Part shown: piece by piece, positions 2,072-13,913 of the stretch
Position numbering within the stretch: position 1 is the stretch's first letter
Layout of the letters: every line of letters begins with the position of its first letter
Origin: an uncultured Acidobacteriia bacterium
GTDB lineage: Bacteria; Acidobacteriota; Terriglobia; Bryobacterales; Bryobacteraceae
Direction: 5' to 3'
Assembly (NCBI GenBank): GCA_903851195.1
Contig: CAINNJ010000016.1
Coordinates: 1-59,348 of the forward strand
Length of the DNA: 59,348 bases
Position numbers and translations under genes: made by a program
The notes under the pieces: generated by a model
What the model saw: only the letters and a program-made list of their open reading frames with translations
Databases searched by the model: none
Told to the model about the DNA's origin: nothing

Positions 2072-4023
2072 TTCTGCCCCGCTGCGGGACCCGCCGCCGG
2101 AACAGTCGATGGTGGCGCCTGGATCTTGCCGCTCATCGCCTCGTCCAGGGAAATATGGTTCACTTCAAGCGTGGTTCCCAGCGCCAGATCCAGAGCGATC
2201 CGCGCATGGCTGTAATTCGCCATCGCCTGCACTTCCGAACTCTGCGCGGAAGCCAGATCGCGCTGGTCCTGCACCACCTGATAAGCGGTGGACGCGCCCA
2301 GTTCGTACTTGCGCTTATCGCCGTCGAAGGTCTGCTGCGAAAGCAGCCGCGCCTGCACCGCGGCATCGTAGCGAGCGCGCGCCTGCTGAATGCCGATCAC
2401 CGCGTTCTGCACATCCACGCGGACCTGATTGCTCTGCTTCTGCAGCGAGAGCTCGTTCTGGCGCATTTCGATCACGCTGGTGACGTAATCCGCCTGCGCG
2501 GCGCGGTTGCGCAGCGGGATGTTCAGCGAGAAGCCGGCCGAGTAGTTCGGATAATTGCGCCGGAAAATCTGCGCCAGCGCGCTGCCGTAGCCGCCAGCGA
2601 ACACCGGCACGCCGCCCTGGGCCAGCGCGAACGGCGTGGCGTCACCGCTCAGACCGTTGTTCGTCACTTCCGCGAAGGCCTGCAGCGTGGGGCGAAGAGA
2701 GTTCTTGATGCCCACCAGGTTGACGCGGTTGCTTTCGAGGTTGATCTTATCGGTCTCGATTTCGATGCGGTTCATCAGCGCCTGCGAGACCAGCTCGTCC
2801 ACGGGCCGGAACTCGTCTTTCGCCGGAATCTCCATGCGGTCGAGGGGAATGATGTGGACGTCCGCAAGATCGGAAGTCGCCACGCCTTTGCGGCTCAGCA
2901 CGTTCTTGAGAATGGTTTCCTGCTGCAGCAGGTTGGTCTGTGAGATCAGCTGGTCCTGTTTCGCCGCGTAGAGCTGCGACTGGGCCCGCGTCACTTCGAT
3001 TTCCGCGAGCGTCCCGATCTGCACCTGCTTCTGGTTGTTCTCGAACAGCTGCTGGGCGGTGGCCACTTCGTCCTGCCGGGCTTTCAGATCCTGCGTGAAG
3101 CTGACCAGATCCCAGTAAAGATTCAGCGCCGCCGTCACGGTGGTGATCACCTGCTGTTTGAACTGCAGGTCCGTGACCTTCAGGCTGTTTTTCTGTACCC
3201 GGATATTGCGGTCGTTCACGGCCCGTCCGAACCCGTTCAGCAGGTTCTGCGTGACGGTGAGATCGACGTTCGCCGTGGTAAACGGGTTCAGGCTGTAAAA
3301 GGTGCTGTTGACGCGCTGGTACTGGCTGGTATAGCTCAGCGTTGCCGACGTGCCGAAGTGCGAGTTCTGGGAGTAAGAAGCGACCAGCGTGCGCGTGTCG
3401 AACACCAGGCTCTGGGTGCCGCTGAAACTCGTGTTGCTCTGCGGCGTGGTGGTGTGCGCGAAGTTCGTGAATGCCGTGATGGAGCCGTCGAAGGTGGGGA
3501 TGGCCGGCCCCAGCTGCGTCAGGACGCTGGAGTTTACGCCCGCGCTGGTCACGGGCGGCGATCCGTTGGTGTTGATGCTGACGCCCGCCAGGCTGACGCT
3601 GGTCGGCCCGGAAGCGACTCCCTGTCCGACGCTGCGGAGCAAGCCGCCGCCCAGAGCGCGCCGCAGCACTTCCCGGGCCAGCAGCGGCGCATAGCGCTGC
3701 ACTTCGATATCGAGATTGTTTTCGAGCACCAGCGCCACCACGTCCTGCGCCGAAAGATAGAGGTTACCCGCTTTGATCAGCGAATCGAGACGGGACGTGT
3801 TGGCCAGATTGACGGGCGGCACGCTCCTGGTTTCGTAGGCGTGCGTGAAGAAAGAGAGCGTGTGCGCAGGCGCGGGATCGATTCGGACAGCGGTCTGGGC
3901 GAGGGCCGAACTCACCGTGACCGTTAGCGTGAGAATCACCGCTGCCGTGCGTCGCAGACCCGAACCGCGCAAACTCAAACCGCGCAACCTCAAACCGCGC
4001 AAACAATCGTTATGGGCGTTCAT
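2068..4023 (-). CDS. TolC family outer-membrane efflux protein (paralogue 1)
   Basis: 651-aa outer-membrane channel subunit, clearly paralogous to the following gene: both share the pattern VNLANTSRLDSLIKAGNLYL, then LENNLDIEVQRYAPLLA, then NLLNGFGRAVNDRNI near the middle. The signal peptide is unusual: about 20 residues of repeated Leu-Arg-Gly units precede the hydrophobic core and a cleavage site near SSALAQ (residue ~43). First gene of the minus-strand pair, coupled to the next by a 4-base overlap. The substrate cannot be told from sequence. Two tandem OMF genes without visible pump subunits are unusual but known in acidobacteria. Confidence 0.9.
   Translation of the reverse strand: MNAHNDCLRGLRLRGLSLRGSGLRRTAAVILTLTVTVSSALAQTAVRIDPAPAHTLSFFTHAYETRSVPPVNLANTSRLDSLIKAGNLYLSAQDVVALVLENNLDIEVQRYAPLLAREVLRRALGGGLLRSVGQGVASGPTSVSLAGVSINTNGSPPVTSAGVNSSVLTQLGPAIPTFDGSITAFTNFAHTTTPQSNTSFSGTQSLVFDTRTLVASYSQNSHFGTSATLSYTSQYQRVNSTFYSLNPFTTANVDLTVTQNLLNGFGRAVNDRNIRVQKNSLKVTDLQFKQQVITTVTAALNLYWDLVSFTQDLKARQDEVATAQQLFENNQKQVQIGTLAEIEVTRAQSQLYAAKQDQLISQTNLLQQETILKNVLSRKGVATSDLADVHIIPLDRMEIPAKDEFRPVDELVSQALMNRIEIETDKINLESNRVNLVGIKNSLRPTLQAFAEVTNNGLSGDATPFALAQGGVPVFAGGYGSALAQIFRRNYPNYSAGFSLNIPLRNRAAQADYVTSVIEMRQNELSLQKQSNQVRVDVQNAVIGIQQARARYDAAVQARLLSQQTFDGDKRKYELGASTAYQVVQDQRDLASAQSSEVQAMANYSHARIALDLALGTTLEVNHISLDEAMSGKIQAPPSTVPAAGPAAGQK
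3962..4006. repeat. three tandem 15-bp units inside a signal peptide
   Basis: Three contiguous 15-bp units (3962-3976, 3977-3991, 3992-4006), about 85-90% alike, each containing the core AACCGCGCAA on the plus strand. Read on the minus strand they encode LRGLR-LRGLS-LRGSG in the n-region of the TolC-type protein, so copy number can change in steps of five codons without breaking the frame. Confidence 0.75.
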
Positions 4024-4186
4024 CTACTAAATACCTAACGGGATTCCCCGACCTTTGGTTCAAAATGTTTCTCAGATGACCAGGACATTACGCGCGAGAG
4101 CCGCCTGCCGTTCGCAAAACCGGTCGGCGCCGGAAGGTATCTGAGGCGCGGCTGAGCTTGTTCCTTCAATGGTATAGTAGCCGTTT
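4024..4186. promoter_or_regulatory. divergent promoter region, tolC-type gene / pyrE
   Basis: 163-bp divergent intergenic region. A good -10 element TATAGT lies at 4173-4178, only 8 bases before the GTG start of pyrE, so the pyrE transcript may be leaderless or nearly so. No matching TTGACA-like -35 box is seen at 17 bp, and no attenuator hairpin or PyrR-type site was recognised. Confidence 0.4.
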
Positions 4187-4813
4187 GTGACGCTGCAAGC
4201 GCCGACCGAATCACCCGTGGAAAACCAGGAAACAGGCCATATTCTCGAGATCTTTCAGCAGACCGGAGCGTATCTCACCGGTCATTTTCGGCTCACCAGC
4301 GGCCTGCACAGCCCCAATTATCTGCAGTCCGCCATCGTGCTCCAGTATCCTCAACATGCCGAGACGCTCGGCAGGGAACTGGCGGCCCGGGTTTTCGAAC
4401 TTTTCGGCGGAAAAAAGATCGATGTGGTGATCTCCCCGGCCCTGGGCGGCCTGGTGATCGGCCATGAAGTGGCGCGTTCGCTCGGCGTGCGCTTCCTCTT
4501 TACAGAGCGGGACGCGGAACGAACGATGTCGCTGCGCCGGGGTTTCGCGCTTCAAAAGGGCGAACGGGCGGTGGTGGTGGAAGACGTGATCACCACGGGC
4601 GGCAGCACCAGGGAAGTGATCGACATTGTCCGCGCGGCGGGCGCCGTGCCCGTGGCGGCCGGTTCCATCATCGACCGGAGCGGCGGCGCGGTTGACCTGG
4701 GAATTCCCCGGGCCGCGCTGGAAACTCTCCACGTCGTGGCCTACAAGCCGGAGGACTGTCCGATGTGCCGCGCCGGCGAACCCGTGGTCAAGCCGGGATC
4801 GAGGCCCGCGTAG
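4187..4813 (+). CDS. pyrE: orotate phosphoribosyltransferase
   Basis: Converts orotate and PRPP to orotidine 5'-phosphate in pyrimidine biosynthesis; cytosolic dimer. 208 aa, normal length. The PRPP-binding loop VVVEDVITTGGST is at residues 129-141, and the substrate end GHFRLTSGLHSPNYLQ is at ~32-47. Starts with GTG, supported by the -10 box just upstream and by family length. First gene of the pyrE-truA-ppa run; truA begins 7 bases after its stop. The C-terminal CPMC pair (171-174) is common in the longer form of this family. Confidence 0.95.
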   Translation: MTLQAPTESPVENQETGHILEIFQQTGAYLTGHFRLTSGLHSPNYLQSAIVLQYPQHAETLGRELAARVFELFGGKKIDVVISPALGGLVIGHEVARSLGVRFLFTERDAERTMSLRRGFALQKGERAVVVEDVITTGGSTREVIDIVRAAGAVPVAAGSIIDRSGGAVDLGIPRAALETLHVVAYKPEDCPMCRAGEPVVKPGSRPA

Positions 4814-5561: not shown

Positions 5562-6130
5562 AACGCCTATACGACATCGACCCCGGCCCCGATTCGCCGG
5601 AGATTGTTCGAGTCATCGTGGAGATCCCGCAGAACTCCGCGAATAAATATGAGTACGACGGAAACCTGGGCGTGTTCCGCCTGGACCGCGCGCTCTATTC
5701 GCCCCTGCACTATCCGGGCGATTACGGCTTCATTCCCGGCACTCTGGCGGACGATAACGATCCCCTCGACTGCCTGGTTCTGGTGCAGCAGCCCAGCTAT
5801 CCCGGCGTGATGATCGAAGTGCGGCCCGTGGGCGTGCTCAACATGGTGGACAGCGATCAGCAGGATCAGAAAATCCTCGCGGTGCCGACCCGCAATCCCC
5901 GCTACGACCAGATCCATACGATGGACCAGATCTTTCCGCACGTGCGGCGCGAGATGGAGCACTTCTTTTCCATTTATAAGGAACTGGAAGGCAAGGTCAC
6001 GATGATGGAAGGCTGGGGTGGTCCGCGCGAGGCCCGCAAGGCAATCACGAAATGCCGCGAACGGTATCTTGAGCTGCACAAGAACGACGATGTTCCGAAG
6101 GACGCGTCCGTTCCGGTTGTCGAAGCTTAG
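5558..6130 (+). CDS. ppa: inorganic pyrophosphatase
   Basis: Family I soluble pyrophosphatase, hydrolysing PPi to two phosphates and pulling biosynthetic reactions forward. 190 aa, usual size. The family signature DNDPLD is at residues 66-71 with Mg-binding aspartates; HYPGDYGFIPGTL precedes it. GTG start overlapping the truA stop by 4 bases. PyrE produces PPi, so the linkage is metabolically sensible. Confidence 0.95.
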   Translation: MKRLYDIDPGPDSPEIVRVIVEIPQNSANKYEYDGNLGVFRLDRALYSPLHYPGDYGFIPGTLADDNDPLDCLVLVQQPSYPGVMIEVRPVGVLNMVDSDQQDQKILAVPTRNPRYDQIHTMDQIFPHVRREMEHFFSIYKELEGKVTMMEGWGGPREARKAITKCRERYLELHKNDDVPKDASVPVVEA

Positions 6131-6234
6131 CTTCAGGAAGCTTCCCCTCAACAAACACCGTCTTCGTCCACGAATGGACACGCGCTTGCTTCAACGTCAC
6201 CGCTGGGAATTTTCAACCCGTTCCGGCAGACGTG

Positions 6235-7152
6235 ATGATGGCACGATACCAGAACTGGCGCACATTTACCCGAGCACTGCAGACCTTCGTCTGCTGCGCG
6301 ACTGCAGTTTCCGCCGCCGATCCTCCCATCCGGGCGCTCGCTGACCTCGTTCTCGTTCCGGTCACCGTGACCGATCGAAACGGCGCCGCGATCTCCGGCC
6401 TGCTGAAACAACAGATCCGGATCCTCGATAACGACGAACCGCGCTCCGTTCTCTCCTTTGAACGGGATCGAAGTCCTTCGTCCATCGTAGTGGTCGCGGA
6501 CTGCAGTGCCAGTATGCGTTCCAAAAGACAGGCCCTGCGGCAGGCGCTCGAAGTCATCGCCGCTTCCGCGGGCCCGGCGGACGAAGCGGCACTGGTCACG
6601 TTCTCCGACAAGGCACGCGTCCGGAGCGGATTCACCAAGGACATTACGGATGTGACGGAGCGTGCCGCCTTCGAGCCGCCTGCCGGCGAAACGGCACTGC
6701 TGGATGCGGTCTGGGCGGGCTTCGGGCTGGCGAAACAGGGTCATCATGCGCGCCGGTCTCTGATCGTCATCACCGACGGCGGGGATAACCACAGCCGCCG
6801 GACCGCCGCGGAACTGCGCGCCGCCGCCCTCGAAGCCGATGTGCAGGTTTACGCGATTTCCGTGCATGAGCAGACGTTCAGCATGGCAGAGCGCTCCGGC
6901 AGCGCGCTGCTGAAACGGCTGGCGGAATCGACCGGCGGGCTTCATTTCGAAATCGGCAGTTCCCGGCAGCTTCCGGAGGCCGCCCGGCGAATCGCGGATG
7001 CCACGCGCAATCTCTATATCGCCGGCTTTCGTCCGCCGGAAGGCCGCGACCGGACACAGTGGCGACGCATTCGAGTGCTGCCTGCGGACCGGTCCGGAAA
7101 GAACTGGCGCATGAACGCGCGCAGCGCGTATCGCGGAAGCTCCACGGAATAA
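6235..7152 (+). CDS. secreted VWFA-domain protein
   Basis: About 305 aa with an N-terminal signal peptide (hydrophobic stretch ending near TAVSAAD). A short N-terminal segment (VPVTVTDRNGAAISGL, then IRILDNDEPR) precedes a von Willebrand A domain carrying the MIDAS motif DCSAS in VVADCSASMRSK, followed by ALVTFSDKARVRSGF and SLIVITDGGDN. This is the 'VWFA-related' secreted family expanded in acidobacteria; function unknown, probably metal-dependent protein interaction outside the inner membrane. GTG at 6232 and ATGs at 6235 and 6238 are possible starts; no clear Shine-Dalgarno separates them. It ends 10 bases before the cytochrome gene. Confidence 0.85.
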   Translation: MMARYQNWRTFTRALQTFVCCATAVSAADPPIRALADLVLVPVTVTDRNGAAISGLLKQQIRILDNDEPRSVLSFERDRSPSSIVVVADCSASMRSKRQALRQALEVIAASAGPADEAALVTFSDKARVRSGFTKDITDVTERAAFEPPAGETALLDAVWAGFGLAKQGHHARRSLIVITDGGDNHSRRTAAELRAAALEADVQVYAISVHEQTFSMAERSGSALLKRLAESTGGLHFEIGSSRQLPEAARRIADATRNLYIAGFRPPEGRDRTQWRRIRVLPADRSGKNWRMNARSAYRGSSTE

Positions 7153-7162
7153 GGCCTCTTTG

Positions 7163-8281
7163 ATGAAGATCTCTCTTCTGTTTTTTCTAACCGTTCTTAC
7201 TCTGTATGTTCCCGCGACCTTCGCCCAATCGGCCGGGGCCGCGAAACTCACCACCGGCAAAGAGATCTATGAAGGTGGTTGTTCCGGTTGTCATGGCGGG
7301 GACGGCAAAGGCGCGCCGCAATCCACCATAGGTTTCGAGAAACCGGAAAGCTTTCCGGATTTCACCAAATGCGACCAGACCACGCCCGAAGATAACTGGG
7401 CGTGGAAATCCGTGATCCGCGATGGCGGGCCGTCGCGCGCCTTCAGCCAGATCATGCCTTCGTTCAGCGGCGCCCTGACCTCGCGCCAGATGGACGAAGT
7501 GATCGGCTACATGCGCGGCTTCTGCAAGGAGAAAGGCTGGGCGCGCGGGGAACTGAATCTGCCGCGCGCGCTCGGCACAGAGAAAGCGTTTCCGGAAGAC
7601 GAGGTGGTGATCACCACCACTCTGAACGCCAACGGGACGCCGTCGGTATCGAATGAAATTGTGCATGAACAGCGCTTCGGCGTGAAGAACCAGATCGAGG
7701 TTTCCGTGCCGGTGAGTTTCGAACGTCCCGAGCGCGGCAAATGGTACGGCGGCGTTGGCGATGTCGGCCTCGGGGTGAAACGCGTGCTGTTTTCGAGTCT
7801 GGGCAGCGGGTCGATTGTGAGCGCGCAGGGTGAGGTTATCCTGCCGGTTGGCAACCGGGCACACGGACTGGGCAGCGGTGTCACCACCTTCGAAAACTTT
7901 GTTGCTTATGGGCAGTTGCTGCCGTGGAAAACGTTTTTCCAGTTCCAGGCGGGCGCCGATCTGCCTGTCGACCGCGCAAAAGCTCCGGATACCGCGTTCG
8001 TGCGCACCGCCATCGGCAAGAGTTTTAATCAGAACGAAGGTTTAGGGCGGATGTGGTCCCCCATGGTGGAATTTCTGGGCGATCGCGATCTGGTGGCCGG
8101 CATGAGAACCAATGTGGATGTGATGCCGGAGATGCAGGTCACCATCAGCAAGCGCCAGCATATTCGCTTCGACGTGGGATTGCGCATCCCCGCCACCAAC
8201 ACGGCCGGGCGGCAGAAACAGGTGATGTTCTATCTGCTGTGGGACTGGCAGGACGGCAAACTTCTGGAGGGCTGGAAATGA
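7163..8281 (+). CDS. cytochrome c domain fused to an outer-membrane beta-barrel-like domain
   Basis: 372 aa. Signal peptide (ends near TFAQS), then one class I cytochrome c domain with haem site C40-SG-CH44 and a likely axial Met in QIMPSFSGALT. From about residue 145 the sequence changes to alternating amphipathic strands (VHEQRFGVKNQIEVSVPVSF; GVGDVGLGVKRVLF; MQVTISKRQHIRFDVGLRIP) and ends in the aromatic strand QVMFYLLWDW, like porin-type 'phenol-pathway transporter' barrels. Seen: haem motif and strand pattern. Inferred: a periplasmic haem domain tethered to its own barrel. Stop and next start overlap (ATGA at 8278-8281). Confidence 0.75.
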   Translation: MKISLLFFLTVLTLYVPATFAQSAGAAKLTTGKEIYEGGCSGCHGGDGKGAPQSTIGFEKPESFPDFTKCDQTTPEDNWAWKSVIRDGGPSRAFSQIMPSFSGALTSRQMDEVIGYMRGFCKEKGWARGELNLPRALGTEKAFPEDEVVITTTLNANGTPSVSNEIVHEQRFGVKNQIEVSVPVSFERPERGKWYGGVGDVGLGVKRVLFSSLGSGSIVSAQGEVILPVGNRAHGLGSGVTTFENFVAYGQLLPWKTFFQFQAGADLPVDRAKAPDTAFVRTAIGKSFNQNEGLGRMWSPMVEFLGDRDLVAGMRTNVDVMPEMQVTISKRQHIRFDVGLRIPATNTAGRQKQVMFYLLWDWQDGKLLEGWK

Positions 8282-10904: not shown

Positions 10905-12035
10905 TTAGACCCGAACGACCCAGCCTCGCCGATACATTACCCACGCCACCAGAAACATCAGCGCAGTATAAGCCAGCGCCCACAGCAGCGACGCATTGAT
11001 CGGGGAAGCCAGCGGCGCGAACACGGCGTTGTAAATCGTATGGTGCAGGCCGCTGATTCCCAGCGCCTCGTCCAGCAGTTCGGAAATCATGTAAATCGTG
11101 ATCGGATTCAGGCCCATGATCACCAGCGGCTTCACGATTTTTTTGTGGTTCAGGCCGTCCACCAGCCACAGAAACGCGCCCAGGATTACAAAATCCATCC
11201 CCGCCATGAACAATGAGAAGGAAGTGGTCCAGAGTTTCTTGTTAATCGGCAGCCAGATATTGCAGATTTCTCCCGCGGCAATCAGAATCACTCCGAGGAT
11301 CAGCATCCGCGCCACGCGCTCCGCCAGCGTCTTCTTCATCCGCAGCAACTGTCCGCAGAGGATTCCGAACAGCGCCGTGGCGATCGCGGGCAACGTACTC
11401 ACCACGCCTTCCGGATCCCACGTTTTCGTGCTGTGGTAGTTGTGCGCGCCCAGCAGCAAGCGGTCCACATAATGGGCTAAATTGCCTTCCACGTCCAGCC
11501 GCCCCGCGCCGTAGCCGGGCACCGGCGCAAACGCCATCAGGATCCAGTAACCCGCCAGTAAACCGATTAACCAGAGGATCTGCCCGCGCAGTTTCGTCGT
11601 GAGGTAAATCGCCACGGCCGCCAGGTAGCAGATGGCGATGCGCTGCAACACGCCCAACAACCGCTGCGTGGAGGGATTGAACGCCGGCGCCGCGTAGACC
11701 GCGAGGCCCAGCAGATACAGAATCACGGCGCGCCGGAACGCCTGGCGGAACAGCACTCCGCGCGATACGCCGGCCGCGAGGCGGCGCGCCAGAGACAGCG
11801 TGAGCGCCACGCCGACGATCCACACGAACGACGGAAACACCATGTCGGTGGGCGTCCAGCCGTTCCACTCCGCATGTTGCAGCGGCGCATAGACGTGGCG
11901 GCCGTCGCCTGGATCGTTCACCAGCACCATCAGCGCCATGGTGGCGCCGCGGAACGCATCGAGCGCGACCAGGCGGTCCTGCGTGGCGAAACGTTTTTGC
12001 CCCACCGGGGCGGCGACGGAGGCGGGGGTAGCCAT
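10905..12035 (-). CDS. DUF5009/COG4299 multipass acyltransferase-like membrane protein
   Basis: 376 aa with about ten membrane segments. The N-terminal RLVALDAFRGATMALMVLVN, followed by HAEWNGWTPTDMVFPSFVWIVG, is characteristic of the bacterial relatives of heparan-alpha-glucosaminide N-acetyltransferase (COG4299). Those proteins are thought to move acetyl groups across the membrane onto sugars; the substrate here is unknown. Last gene of the minus-strand run, 18 bases after the exosortase E gene; exosortase loci are often beside envelope-glycan genes, which fits a sugar-acylating role. It ends 9 bases from the convergent 336-aa gene. Confidence 0.85.
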   Translation of the reverse strand: MATPASVAAPVGQKRFATQDRLVALDAFRGATMALMVLVNDPGDGRHVYAPLQHAEWNGWTPTDMVFPSFVWIVGVALTLSLARRLAAGVSRGVLFRQAFRRAVILYLLGLAVYAAPAFNPSTQRLLGVLQRIAICYLAAVAIYLTTKLRGQILWLIGLLAGYWILMAFAPVPGYGAGRLDVEGNLAHYVDRLLLGAHNYHSTKTWDPEGVVSTLPAIATALFGILCGQLLRMKKTLAERVARMLILGVILIAAGEICNIWLPINKKLWTTSFSLFMAGMDFVILGAFLWLVDGLNHKKIVKPLVIMGLNPITIYMISELLDEALGISGLHHTIYNAVFAPLASPINASLLWALAYTALMFLVAWVMYRRGWVVRV

Positions 12036-12053: not shown

Positions 12054-13595
12054 TTACCAAAAGCTCCATTGACTCCTCGCGAGCACCTCGAACGCGAGCA
12101 GCGCGTTCGTCGTGGCATGAGCGCCTACCGCGTCGCCCACTCGCCCCCGCCGCAACAGCGCGAGGCCGTAGGCCGCGCCCGCCAGCGTCCCGGCGATCCA
12201 GCGCGACCCGTGCAGCAGGCCGAAGATGAGGGAACTCGCCAGCAGAGCCGGCCACGCAAACCGGCGCAGCGGCACGGTCTCGAATTCCGCAGCCTGGAAC
12301 CGGCGATAGAGGAATCCCCGAAACGCCAGTTCTTCGGCGATCGGCACGGTCACCACGGCCGCCGCCACCCGAAACAGCAACCACAAGTTTCGAGCCAGAG
12401 GCGCCGCCGCCGCGAGTGCCGCGGGCATGGCTTGCGGCGCGGTCCCGTGGAGCCGGTCGAGCCCGATCCAGAGCAGAAATACACCGACGCCCATGGCCGG
12501 GCCAAACCAATCGAAACACCAGTTCATCTCTGCGTAACTGCGCCGGTAGTACAACAGCACCCCTGCCGCCGCGAAGAAGCGCAGCGGATACGTCCACTCG
12601 AAATCGCCCGTTAAGGCGCGCGACAGCATCCCCGCCGCGAGAATGGCGACAAACGGCAGGAGCCAAGCAGCCACGGGGTTGTGCGCAGCCTCGCGCGTGT
12701 CCTGCTGTCGCGCGACCCACGGCAGCCGGCCCGACGCGGTCGTGAAACCCAGCGCCACGAGGTTAAAGAGAATCCAGCCCGCCTGCGAGTGAAATCCGCC
12801 CGCCGCGATTCGCTCCGCCCCGGCGTTCCCGATCAGAATCAGCGCCGCGATGCGCACGCTGTTCAGCAGAAAAATCAGCACCGCGCCGGCCGGCAGCAAC
12901 AGCAGCGCCTGCGGGAACCGGCACTGTTTCCGGTACAAAATCAGCCACGTGACTCCGAAGGCCAAAATCAGACCGATGCCTTCCAGCCCGGAACACTCCG
13001 GCGCTACCTGCACCAGAAAGCCTGGCGTCCCGATCATCTTCTTCGCCGGGTCGACGATCAGTTCAGGAATAAACCAGCTCACCAGCCAGTGGGTGAGCTG
13101 AAACGTAACCGTGGCCGTCCGGGGCCAGAGAGACCGGCTTGCGTTGCCCGTTATGCAGGCCAGCAGCACCGCGGTCGAAGCAATCAGCCACAAATAACCC
13201 GTGCTGAAGAACATTCCGACCCATGCACCGGGCGGTATCACGGTGAACGCGCCACAAACCACCGCGCCCAGCCCCGCCGCCACCCACGCCGCGGCCAAAA
13301 CATCGGAATGCGCGCTGTTTCCGGCTCCGTAGAATACCGATGACAGTGCCGCGAACAGAGCCAGACAGCTCACGTGCGCGGCGAGGAAACGCCGGTTCGG
13401 ACGTACCTCGAACCGGGCTTTTCCGGAGATCCCCAGAAAGGTAAAGAAGAAAACCGCCAGGGCGACCGAGGCACGCAAAATCCAGGCTCCCCAACTGCCT
13501 ATCCAGGCACTGAACCCGTGCCTTCCGATCAGGACAGAGTTGTCCAGCCACAGCGTAACCGCAAGCACTTCGAGAGAAAACGCGGCGCCCGGCAT
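12054..13595 (-). CDS. xrtE: exosortase E / CAAX-type protease fusion (VPEID-CTERM system)
   Basis: 513-aa polytopic membrane protein with two catalytic domains. Residues ~1-290 are an exosortase: catalytic Cys201 in APECSGLEG, Arg248 in LNSVRIAAL and His269 in GGFHSQAGW. Residues ~300-513 are a CPBP (CAAX protease/bacteriocin-processing) domain with EExxxR at 421-426, His462 in FGLLHGS and HxxxN at 493-497. This architecture is the known exosortase E/protease that processes VPEID-CTERM proteins. Its likely substrate is encoded 42 bases upstream on the same strand. Expected action: recognise the C-terminal signal in the inner membrane, cleave it and transfer or release the substrate. Confidence 0.9.
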   Translation of the reverse strand: MPGAAFSLEVLAVTLWLDNSVLIGRHGFSAWIGSWGAWILRASVALAVFFFTFLGISGKARFEVRPNRRFLAAHVSCLALFAALSSVFYGAGNSAHSDVLAAAWVAAGLGAVVCGAFTVIPPGAWVGMFFSTGYLWLIASTAVLLACITGNASRSLWPRTATVTFQLTHWLVSWFIPELIVDPAKKMIGTPGFLVQVAPECSGLEGIGLILAFGVTWLILYRKQCRFPQALLLLPAGAVLIFLLNSVRIAALILIGNAGAERIAAGGFHSQAGWILFNLVALGFTTASGRLPWVARQQDTREAAHNPVAAWLLPFVAILAAGMLSRALTGDFEWTYPLRFFAAAGVLLYYRRSYAEMNWCFDWFGPAMGVGVFLLWIGLDRLHGTAPQAMPAALAAAAPLARNLWLLFRVAAAVVTVPIAEELAFRGFLYRRFQAAEFETVPLRRFAWPALLASSLIFGLLHGSRWIAGTLAGAAYGLALLRRGRVGDAVGAHATTNALLAFEVLARSQWSFW

Positions 13596-13637
13596 GACCA
13601 GGCGCCGCAGTGAGCTTCCCTGAGGCAGAATGAAGAA

Positions 13638-13799
13638 CTACTTTCCGCGCCGGCCGCGAATCACCAGCACAGCGCCGGACAGCAGCGCGATTGCGCTCGC
13701 GCCGGACGCCGGATCGATCTCCGGACTCACCACAACCGCCGCCATGCCGGCCACGCTCGCTCCGATACCCAACAACACTAATGCGACTGCTTTTTTCAT
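13638..13799 (-). CDS. short VPEID-CTERM protein, presumptive substrate of the adjacent exosortase E
   Basis: 53 aa. It consists of a basic start (MKK), a hydrophobic signal-like segment (AVALVLLGIGASVAGMAAVVV), the motif SPEIDP (residues 25-30), a second hydrophobic segment (ASAIALLSGAVLVI) and a basic tail RGRRGK. The order motif-membrane helix-Arg cluster is that of PEP-CTERM-like sorting signals, and PEID is the exosortase E variant. The ATG at 13799 is chosen for the strong Shine-Dalgarno AGGAGG (about 11 bases upstream); a longer frame to 13856 lacks support. Almost nothing remains outside the two hydrophobic segments, so the mature product would be tiny. Confidence 0.8.
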   Translation of the reverse strand: MKKAVALVLLGIGASVAGMAAVVVSPEIDPASGASAIALLSGAVLVIRGRRGK

Positions 13800-13913
13800 G
13801 TAAACTGCTTCCTCCTGATGCCACTCTACAGAGGTTGCCGTTTGTGTGAAATACAACCGGTACGGGATAGAAATCGAGTGAAAGGGGAGTAAAGCCGCGG
13901 CTAAGCCCGGTTT
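13800..13913 (-). promoter_or_regulatory. leader of the VPEID-CTERM gene with strong Shine-Dalgarno
   Basis: 114-bp gap on the minus strand between the 219-aa secreted protein and the VPEID-CTERM gene. It holds the ribosome site AGGAGGAAG just upstream of the ATG. The gap breaks the chain of ATGA overlaps seen further upstream, so the sorting cassette may have its own promoter; I could not find a convincing -35/-10 pair. Confidence 0.35.

Follow-up and report, generated by a model that had tools for sequence, protein, structure and literature searches.

To our knowledge, it has yet to be established which moiety a bacterial exosortase adds to its substrate. In the excerpts of the literature used here, the attached group is described only as "some new moiety" (PMC11980579). 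For archaeosortase A (ArtA), the excerpts describe lipid anchoring, and artA, pssA and pssD are syntenic in Methanosarcina (PMC7157517). ArtA and rhombosortase (PMC7157517, PMC6219818) are used below as the precedents for transfer to a lipid amine. Among the myxosortases, the neighbourhood of MrtJ consists of one enzyme and one target, and the MYXO-CTERM tag contains an invariant Cys (PMC11980579).

The window analysed here (59,348 nt) comprises all of contig C16 in the 7.72-Mb genome (G000, 99.66% complete) of a soil Acidobacterium. It contains an exosortase E fused to a CAAX protease and, immediately upstream, a small gene with a VPEID-like tail (Table 1). The enzyme itself is not new. What is new is the near absence of cargo in the small proteins (median 5 residues) and the PF04116 subfamily adjoining these genes in relatives. 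With a probability of roughly 0.4, we propose that this exosortase E acts on a substrate reduced to its addresses, which would be cut at PEID so that a short peptide is passed to an amine, probably that of a lipid.

Table 1. Features of the locus in the window.
Feature	Positions	Strand	Basis or remark
Exosortase E/CAAX-protease (Rce1-like) fusion	12054..13595	(-)	513 aa counted from ATG
Exosortase residues Cys201 (12993-12995), Arg248 (12852-12854), His269 (12789-12791)	12789..12995	(-)	alignments A4, A2
CPBP/Rce1-like glutamic protease residues E421-E422-x3-R426 (12318-12335), His462 (12210-12212), His493 (12117-12119)	12117..12335	(-)	alignment A4
Cargo-less VPEID-like mini-substrate, 53 aa	13638..13799	(-)	TIGR04161 match, alignment A1
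Predicted signal peptide, residues 1-20, ends AGMA	13740..13799	(-)	-3,-1 rule; Ala20 kept in at least 90% of A1
Entire predicted cargo ahead of the motif, 5 residues, AVVVS	13725..13739	(-)	sequence
PEID sorting motif	13713..13724	(-)	PE invariant in A1
C-terminal membrane helix and Arg cluster (RGRRGK)	13641..13712	(-)	R48, R50 nearly invariant in A1
Shine-Dalgarno-like AGGAGGA, 5' of the small gene, ends 10 nt before its ATG	13810..13816	(-)	sequence

The fusion enzyme and the small gene of the window

With 199.7 bits against TIGR04162 (cut-off 150), the fusion belongs to the exosortase E/protease family. It also exceeds the cut-offs of TIGR03008 (148.9 bits; 81.05), Pfam Rce1-like (60.1; 22.4) and Exosortase_EpsH (39.2; 25.7), and matches TIGR04178 (exosortase/archaeosortase). 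In alignment A4, comprising 66 fusions from several phyla, C201, R248, H269, E422, R426, H493 and N497 are invariant, and E421 and H462 are kept in at least 90%. Cys201, Arg248 and His269 are likewise invariant in the 37 fusions of alignment A2, and we take them to be the catalytic residues of the exosortase half. The fusion and the residues named in an earlier note on this DNA are thus confirmed. Since homologues are about 30 residues longer at the N-terminus, the real start may lie upstream of the ATG in the same frame, where the small gene's stop is 14 codons away.

The fold of the fusion is predicted with high confidence. Rce1 and SpdC can be aligned with its C-terminal half, at Z-scores that are only middling, and Foldseek returned no match at E<=0.001. 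Neither the fusions (A4) nor the hydroxylases described below (alignment A3) matched sequences of solved structures at E<=0.01. For the exosortase half, no solved relative was seen in the sequence, Foldseek or structure-alignment comparisons.

The small protein scores 26.3 bits (E 5.6e-6) against TIGR04161, above noise and under the curated VPEID-CTERM cut-off of 33. Its C-terminus has the tripartite VPEID-CTERM layout of PEID-type motif, helix and Arg cluster, as the earlier note had read from its SPEIDP, membrane helix and Arg residues. By score and layout, it is VPEID-like, without curated TIGR04161 membership. A search of the 7.72-Mb genome with TIGR04161 at E<=10 gave three matches, and all of them adjoin its two fusion genes, which argues against chance. 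At the same threshold, matches occurred in 9 of 14 control genomes, none above the cut-off.

The stop of the small gene and the ATG of the fusion are 42 nt apart. Both genes are in one frame, and the TAG of the small gene is the sole stop between them (window 13595-13640). Linked pairs are in frame in 18 of 32 cases (p 0.008, uncorrected for relatedness). Stop read-through was weighed for this spacing and is kept as a curiosity only. The gene downstream of the fusion (window 10905-12035) is NagX-like, at 199 bits under the NagX cut-off of 480.

The genome contains four exosortase-family genes at E<=0.001, two of which are the fusions. The second, diverged fusion is on contig C8 (224388-226829) together with two tandem intact VPEID genes of 51 aa, preceded by a third, decayed-looking copy. 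In a tree of 76 fusions, the window copy and this paralogue group with two other Acidobacterial rows, with support of 99/91 for the four. Contig C25 (596456-597115) encodes a solo protein resembling the protease half only, and similar solo genes are seen in other genomes of the family.

Distribution and anatomy of the small proteins

The fusion is present above the cut-off in 3 of 396 sampled Acidobacteriota genomes. In the family of the window, it is found in 46 of 237 genomes (49 genes), and a profile of alignment A1 detects small genes in 54, including all 46 with a fusion. Of the other 191 genomes, 183 contain neither gene, as expected from the co-occurrence that the earlier note had proposed to check. 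The remaining eight have a small gene without an intact fusion; pieces of a fusion are seen in four (G406, G570, G572 and G610) and none in the others (G402, G461, G555 and G187). The association is strong (Fisher p 4e-41), with relatedness ignored and in part by construction, as A1, like A3, was built from linked genes.

An intact small gene is within about 1 kb of 42 of the 49 fusion genes, so that homologues of the fusion generally do not lack a linked VPEID gene. The exceptions are L072, L087, L091, L093, L095, L105 and L112, some at contig ends; at L105, only the tail of a small gene with a broken frame is left. The 42 linked loci contain one small gene in 30 cases, two in 11, and five in one (L076). 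Many genomes also have unlinked copies, such as G574 and G589, each of which has eight matches. The suggestion of a dedicated neighbour substrate therefore stands for the linkage and fails for exclusivity. At L113 in G610 (5707-7288), the exosortase and protease halves are two overlapping ORFs, representing either a natural split or a frameshift.

Among the 80 best of at least 236 confirmed relatives, fusions are distributed in Acidobacteriota, Planctomycetota, Gamma- and Alphaproteobacteria, and Myxococcota/"Deltaproteobacteria", and the named carriers include cultured strains. Many of these 80 named loci are the same records as the family loci. A VPEID-type tail is present at 63 of them at most (64 matches, that at L143 by chance), and 16 are without a tail, several ended by contig ends. 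The description of such pairs as mostly Alphaproteobacterial was too narrow, and an Acidobacterial enzyme does not widen the known range much, since the same fusion already occurs across several phyla. An extension of range as the main point was dropped for this reason.

Alignment A1 brings together the small protein of the window and 38 counterparts from family loci, 39 in all. Every one of them has P26 and E27; A20, A36, L39, G42, R48 and R50 are nearly invariant, and no Cys is conserved. At 82 of 89 family loci, 123 matches of this type were found; a start filter left 110 of them, and a cleavage site could be predicted in 108. These 108 are nearly all from family loci and include L116 and L117, which are Acidobacterial and from another family. 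The distance from the cleavage site, placed by the simple -3,-1 rule without SignalP, to PE is 5 residues in the median, with quartiles of 3 and 6 and a maximum of 36. Long linkers are seen at L086, L100, L101 and L116, for example. Seven of the 123 matches are in stop-to-stop frames with more than 100 codons open before PE. In six of them, a start and a signal peptide stand right ahead of the tail, so the long upstream frame is probably untranslated; the seventh (L243) is a chance match. PE is not universal, since one copy at L224 reads PK.

Pooled over 21 pairs of relatives with 70-95% identical DNA, omega is 0.34 for the signal, 0.51 for the linker, 0.08 for the motif and loop, and 0.13 for the helix and Arg tail. 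Processing thus appears to matter, and the sequence of the linker appears to matter least. These values indicate that the small genes are real and under selection for processing, and that the presumed product is their least constrained region. At L107, a variant substrate with GPEFD (4194-4448) accompanies a fusion (2436-4115) with Tyr at the position of His462; this is possibly a decaying pair.

The mini-protein could instead be a secreted signalling peptide of 7-10 residues, with signal peptidase and XrtE cutting its two ends and the CPBP half finishing maturation. The predicted mature product is indeed peptide-sized, tandem multi-copy arrays exist (L076, five copies), and transport-type neighbours recur. 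By raw counts, an outer-membrane barrel/carboxypeptidase-regulatory family is found at 15 of the 89 family loci, MacB/FtsX permeases at 9, an unassigned family at 8, and ABC ATPases at 7. The transport-type genes are mostly kilobases away, with 2/11 of the MacB/FtsX permeases, 3/8 of the ABC ATPases and 2/16 of the barrel family within 300 bp. The weak constraint on the linker, which varies even between tandem copies of one genome, also makes a signalling function rather improbable.

Another reading takes the mini-protein as a membrane subunit of XrtE with an accessory or regulatory role; as a decoy, or as a substrate that sets the pace, it would tune the sorting of larger proteins. It would explain why a conserved protein with near-zero cargo usually adjoins the enzyme gene, and why constraint falls on the tail; the genome also has other exosortase genes to be considered. 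Neither TIGR04161 in the own genome nor A1 in the 237 family genomes turned up a convincing large protein that carries this tail. Five tandem copies and unlinked arrays suit a product more than a regulator, and we consider a regulatory role unlikely as well.

Cargo-less small proteins are also encoded at most tail-bearing Planctomycetota loci and at Marinicaulis and Cellvibrionales loci. In Methylococcaceae (L189, L196) and Rhodocyclaceae (L178), open frames of 250-390 residues end in a similar VPEID-type tail, three or four per locus, and probably represent genuine cargo for this family of enzymes. Because homologues pair with such frames, the enzyme does not need an empty cargo. Substrates are longer, too, in the cultured relatives Silvibacterium bohemicum and Terracidiphilus gabretensis.

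The hydroxylase adjoining the genes in relatives

After the fusion, the commonest neighbour in the clustering of the 89 family loci is a PF04116 hydroxylase (FAH), present at 17, and a profile search added L092, L212, L228 and L241. All 17 are within 300 bp of the small gene or the fusion, against 2/16, 2/11, 1/9, 3/8 and 2/5 for the five next commonest families. Examples are at L217 (6754-7590), L088 (6017-6808) and L187 (5135-5977), often tail-to-tail. Six of the neighbouring proteins score 76.8-105.9 bits against PF04116 (gathering score 31), and ten His are invariant in the 15 hydroxylases of alignment A3. The best NCBIfam match of five of them is NF052566 (OlsE), with 69.1-89.9 bits and the cut-off of 475 not reached. 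From the name of the model, OlsE is presumably an ornithine lipid hydroxylase.

The A3 profile of these 15 proteins gave 64 matches at E<=1e-30 in the 237 family genomes. Of the 23 matches with at least 230 bits, 21 adjoin a VPEID or fusion gene, 19 at up to 250 nt from VPEID and 2 at up to 51 nt from the fusion. None of the 41 with 218 bits or less shares a contig with either gene. Because A3 was built from linked genes, this adjacency is partly a product of how the profile was made. Two genomes, G517 (L244) and G500 (L245), have a high-scoring FAH and no detected VPEID or fusion gene. Within about 6 kb of the high-scoring FAH of G517, G500 and G641, there is no convincing VPEID, only one chance-like tail at L245. 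When the 13 genomes supplying rows of A3 are left out, high-scoring FAH genes are seen in 6 of 41 VPEID genomes and 2 of 183 others (p 6e-4). In 23 genomes, partly chosen because adjacency had already been seen, a VPEID or fusion match stands no more than 600 nt from 18 of 38 PF04116 occurrences. The neighbouring PF04116 gene in G592, separated from the small gene by 448 nt as measured between match ends, scores low, is of another type and is not one of the 21.

A further 90 loci give the same picture: apart from the enzyme, no neighbour is commoner than FAH, which is present at 8 loci (next family 4). Three of the eight (L132, L136, L142) repeat family records and the others are L166, L177, L187, L204 and L209. 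At L177, L187 and L204, it is directly 3' of the fusion on the same strand. FAH follows fusions in some Gammaproteobacteria too. A wider FAH operon in Pseudomonadales was tried and rejected: the fusion is above the cut-off in 3 of 194 genomes, and FAH adjoins in G630 (L177) only, with none within about 6 kb of the fusion in G814 (two loci) or G739. Nor does FAH significantly predict short cargo outside Bryobacterales (4/5 vs 15/40, p 0.15).

There is no hydroxylase near the window locus, and the two PF04116 genes of this genome are on other contigs. The hydroxylase is therefore optional, being absent here and from most fusion loci. In the open-licence literature, no paper was found that links FAH to exosortase E/VPEID genes, or that mentions an exosortase along with VPEID, with a sterol desaturase or with a fatty acid hydroxylase.

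An ordinary exosortase E/VPEID-CTERM pair for exopolysaccharide-linked surface proteins would leave the short cargo and the hydroxylase without a special role. Alphaproteobacterial plasmid loci pair xrtE with VPEID-type proteins (seven, of 57-88 aa), several near polysaccharide genes, and an NAD-dependent epimerase family recurs near the fusions (L095, L101, L107 and L117). Such genes are much rarer than FAH in the same clustering of family loci (4 vs 17), and this explanation seems distinctly unlikely. At L095, an apparent start of a nucleotide-sugar dehydrogenase can also be seen by eye.

Proposed mechanism and comparison with known systems

The sequences establish that a membrane enzyme made of two proteases is linked to a mini-protein that is conserved, and from this we infer the steps of cleavage and transfer. 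Sec would export the mini-protein, and its signal peptide would be taken off by signal peptidase I. The exosortase half would then cut at PEID via Cys201, forming a thioester. An amine would attack the thioester and so acquire the peptide, which would be roughly 7-10 residues long. If archaeosortase A and rhombosortase are a guide, this amine most likely belongs to a lipid head group; these precedents and the FAH neighbourhood in relatives are the reasons to consider a lipid. For the Rce1-like half, the probable task is to trim or degrade the released helix, or to cut a second time within the membrane. In some relatives, the adjoining OlsE-like di-iron hydroxylase would modify the lipid, or else the peptide. 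No report of cleavage, peptide or lipid product of such a system was found in the open-licence literature.

That the clipped helix-plus-Arg remnant is itself the product, a small membrane-active peptide with the linker as waste, is very improbable: conservation does peak in the tail, but recognition by the enzyme explains this equally well, and similar tails terminate larger frames (L178, L189).

If a peptide is passed to a lipid amine as proposed, it can be speculated, tentatively, that the fusion, the mini-protein and the OlsE-like hydroxylase form a pathway to short peptidolipids, in which a peptide of up to about 10 residues is joined to a hydroxylated amine lipid. Surface lipopeptides would then be made ribosomally, by way of a sorting enzyme. 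A natural cargo of about 5 residues would make the product small enough to be identified by ordinary mass spectrometry. The lipid hydroxylase adjoining in relatives suggests a candidate acceptor chemistry, as the synteny of artA, pssA and pssD did for archaeosortase A.

The closest described system is that of TIGR04162 and TIGR04161. It shares the architecture and residues of the enzyme and a small, linked, tripartite substrate. The differences are the score of the window substrate under the TIGR04161 cut-off, the tandem and unlinked arrays, and the FAH partner in part of the family. The cargo is about 5 residues here and roughly 8-35, read by eye, in the seven Alphaproteobacterial plasmid proteins.

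Archaeosortase A of Haloferax volcanii belongs to the same enzyme superfamily (TIGR04178). Its lipid attachment is experimentally supported and its partners are PssA and PssD, whereas the presumed lipid enzyme here is a PF04116 hydroxylase, and the fusion includes an additional protease. The myxosortases MrtX and MrtJ are similar in that a glutamic intramembrane protease of the CPBP family acts on a tripartite C-terminal tag. They differ in that the MYXO-CTERM tag has a conserved Cys, which A1 lacks, and in that the CPBP part here is fused to an exosortase. As for OlsE (NF052566), it is the nearest NCBIfam model to the neighbouring hydroxylases, yet their scores are so far under its cut-off that they are not assigned to OlsE.
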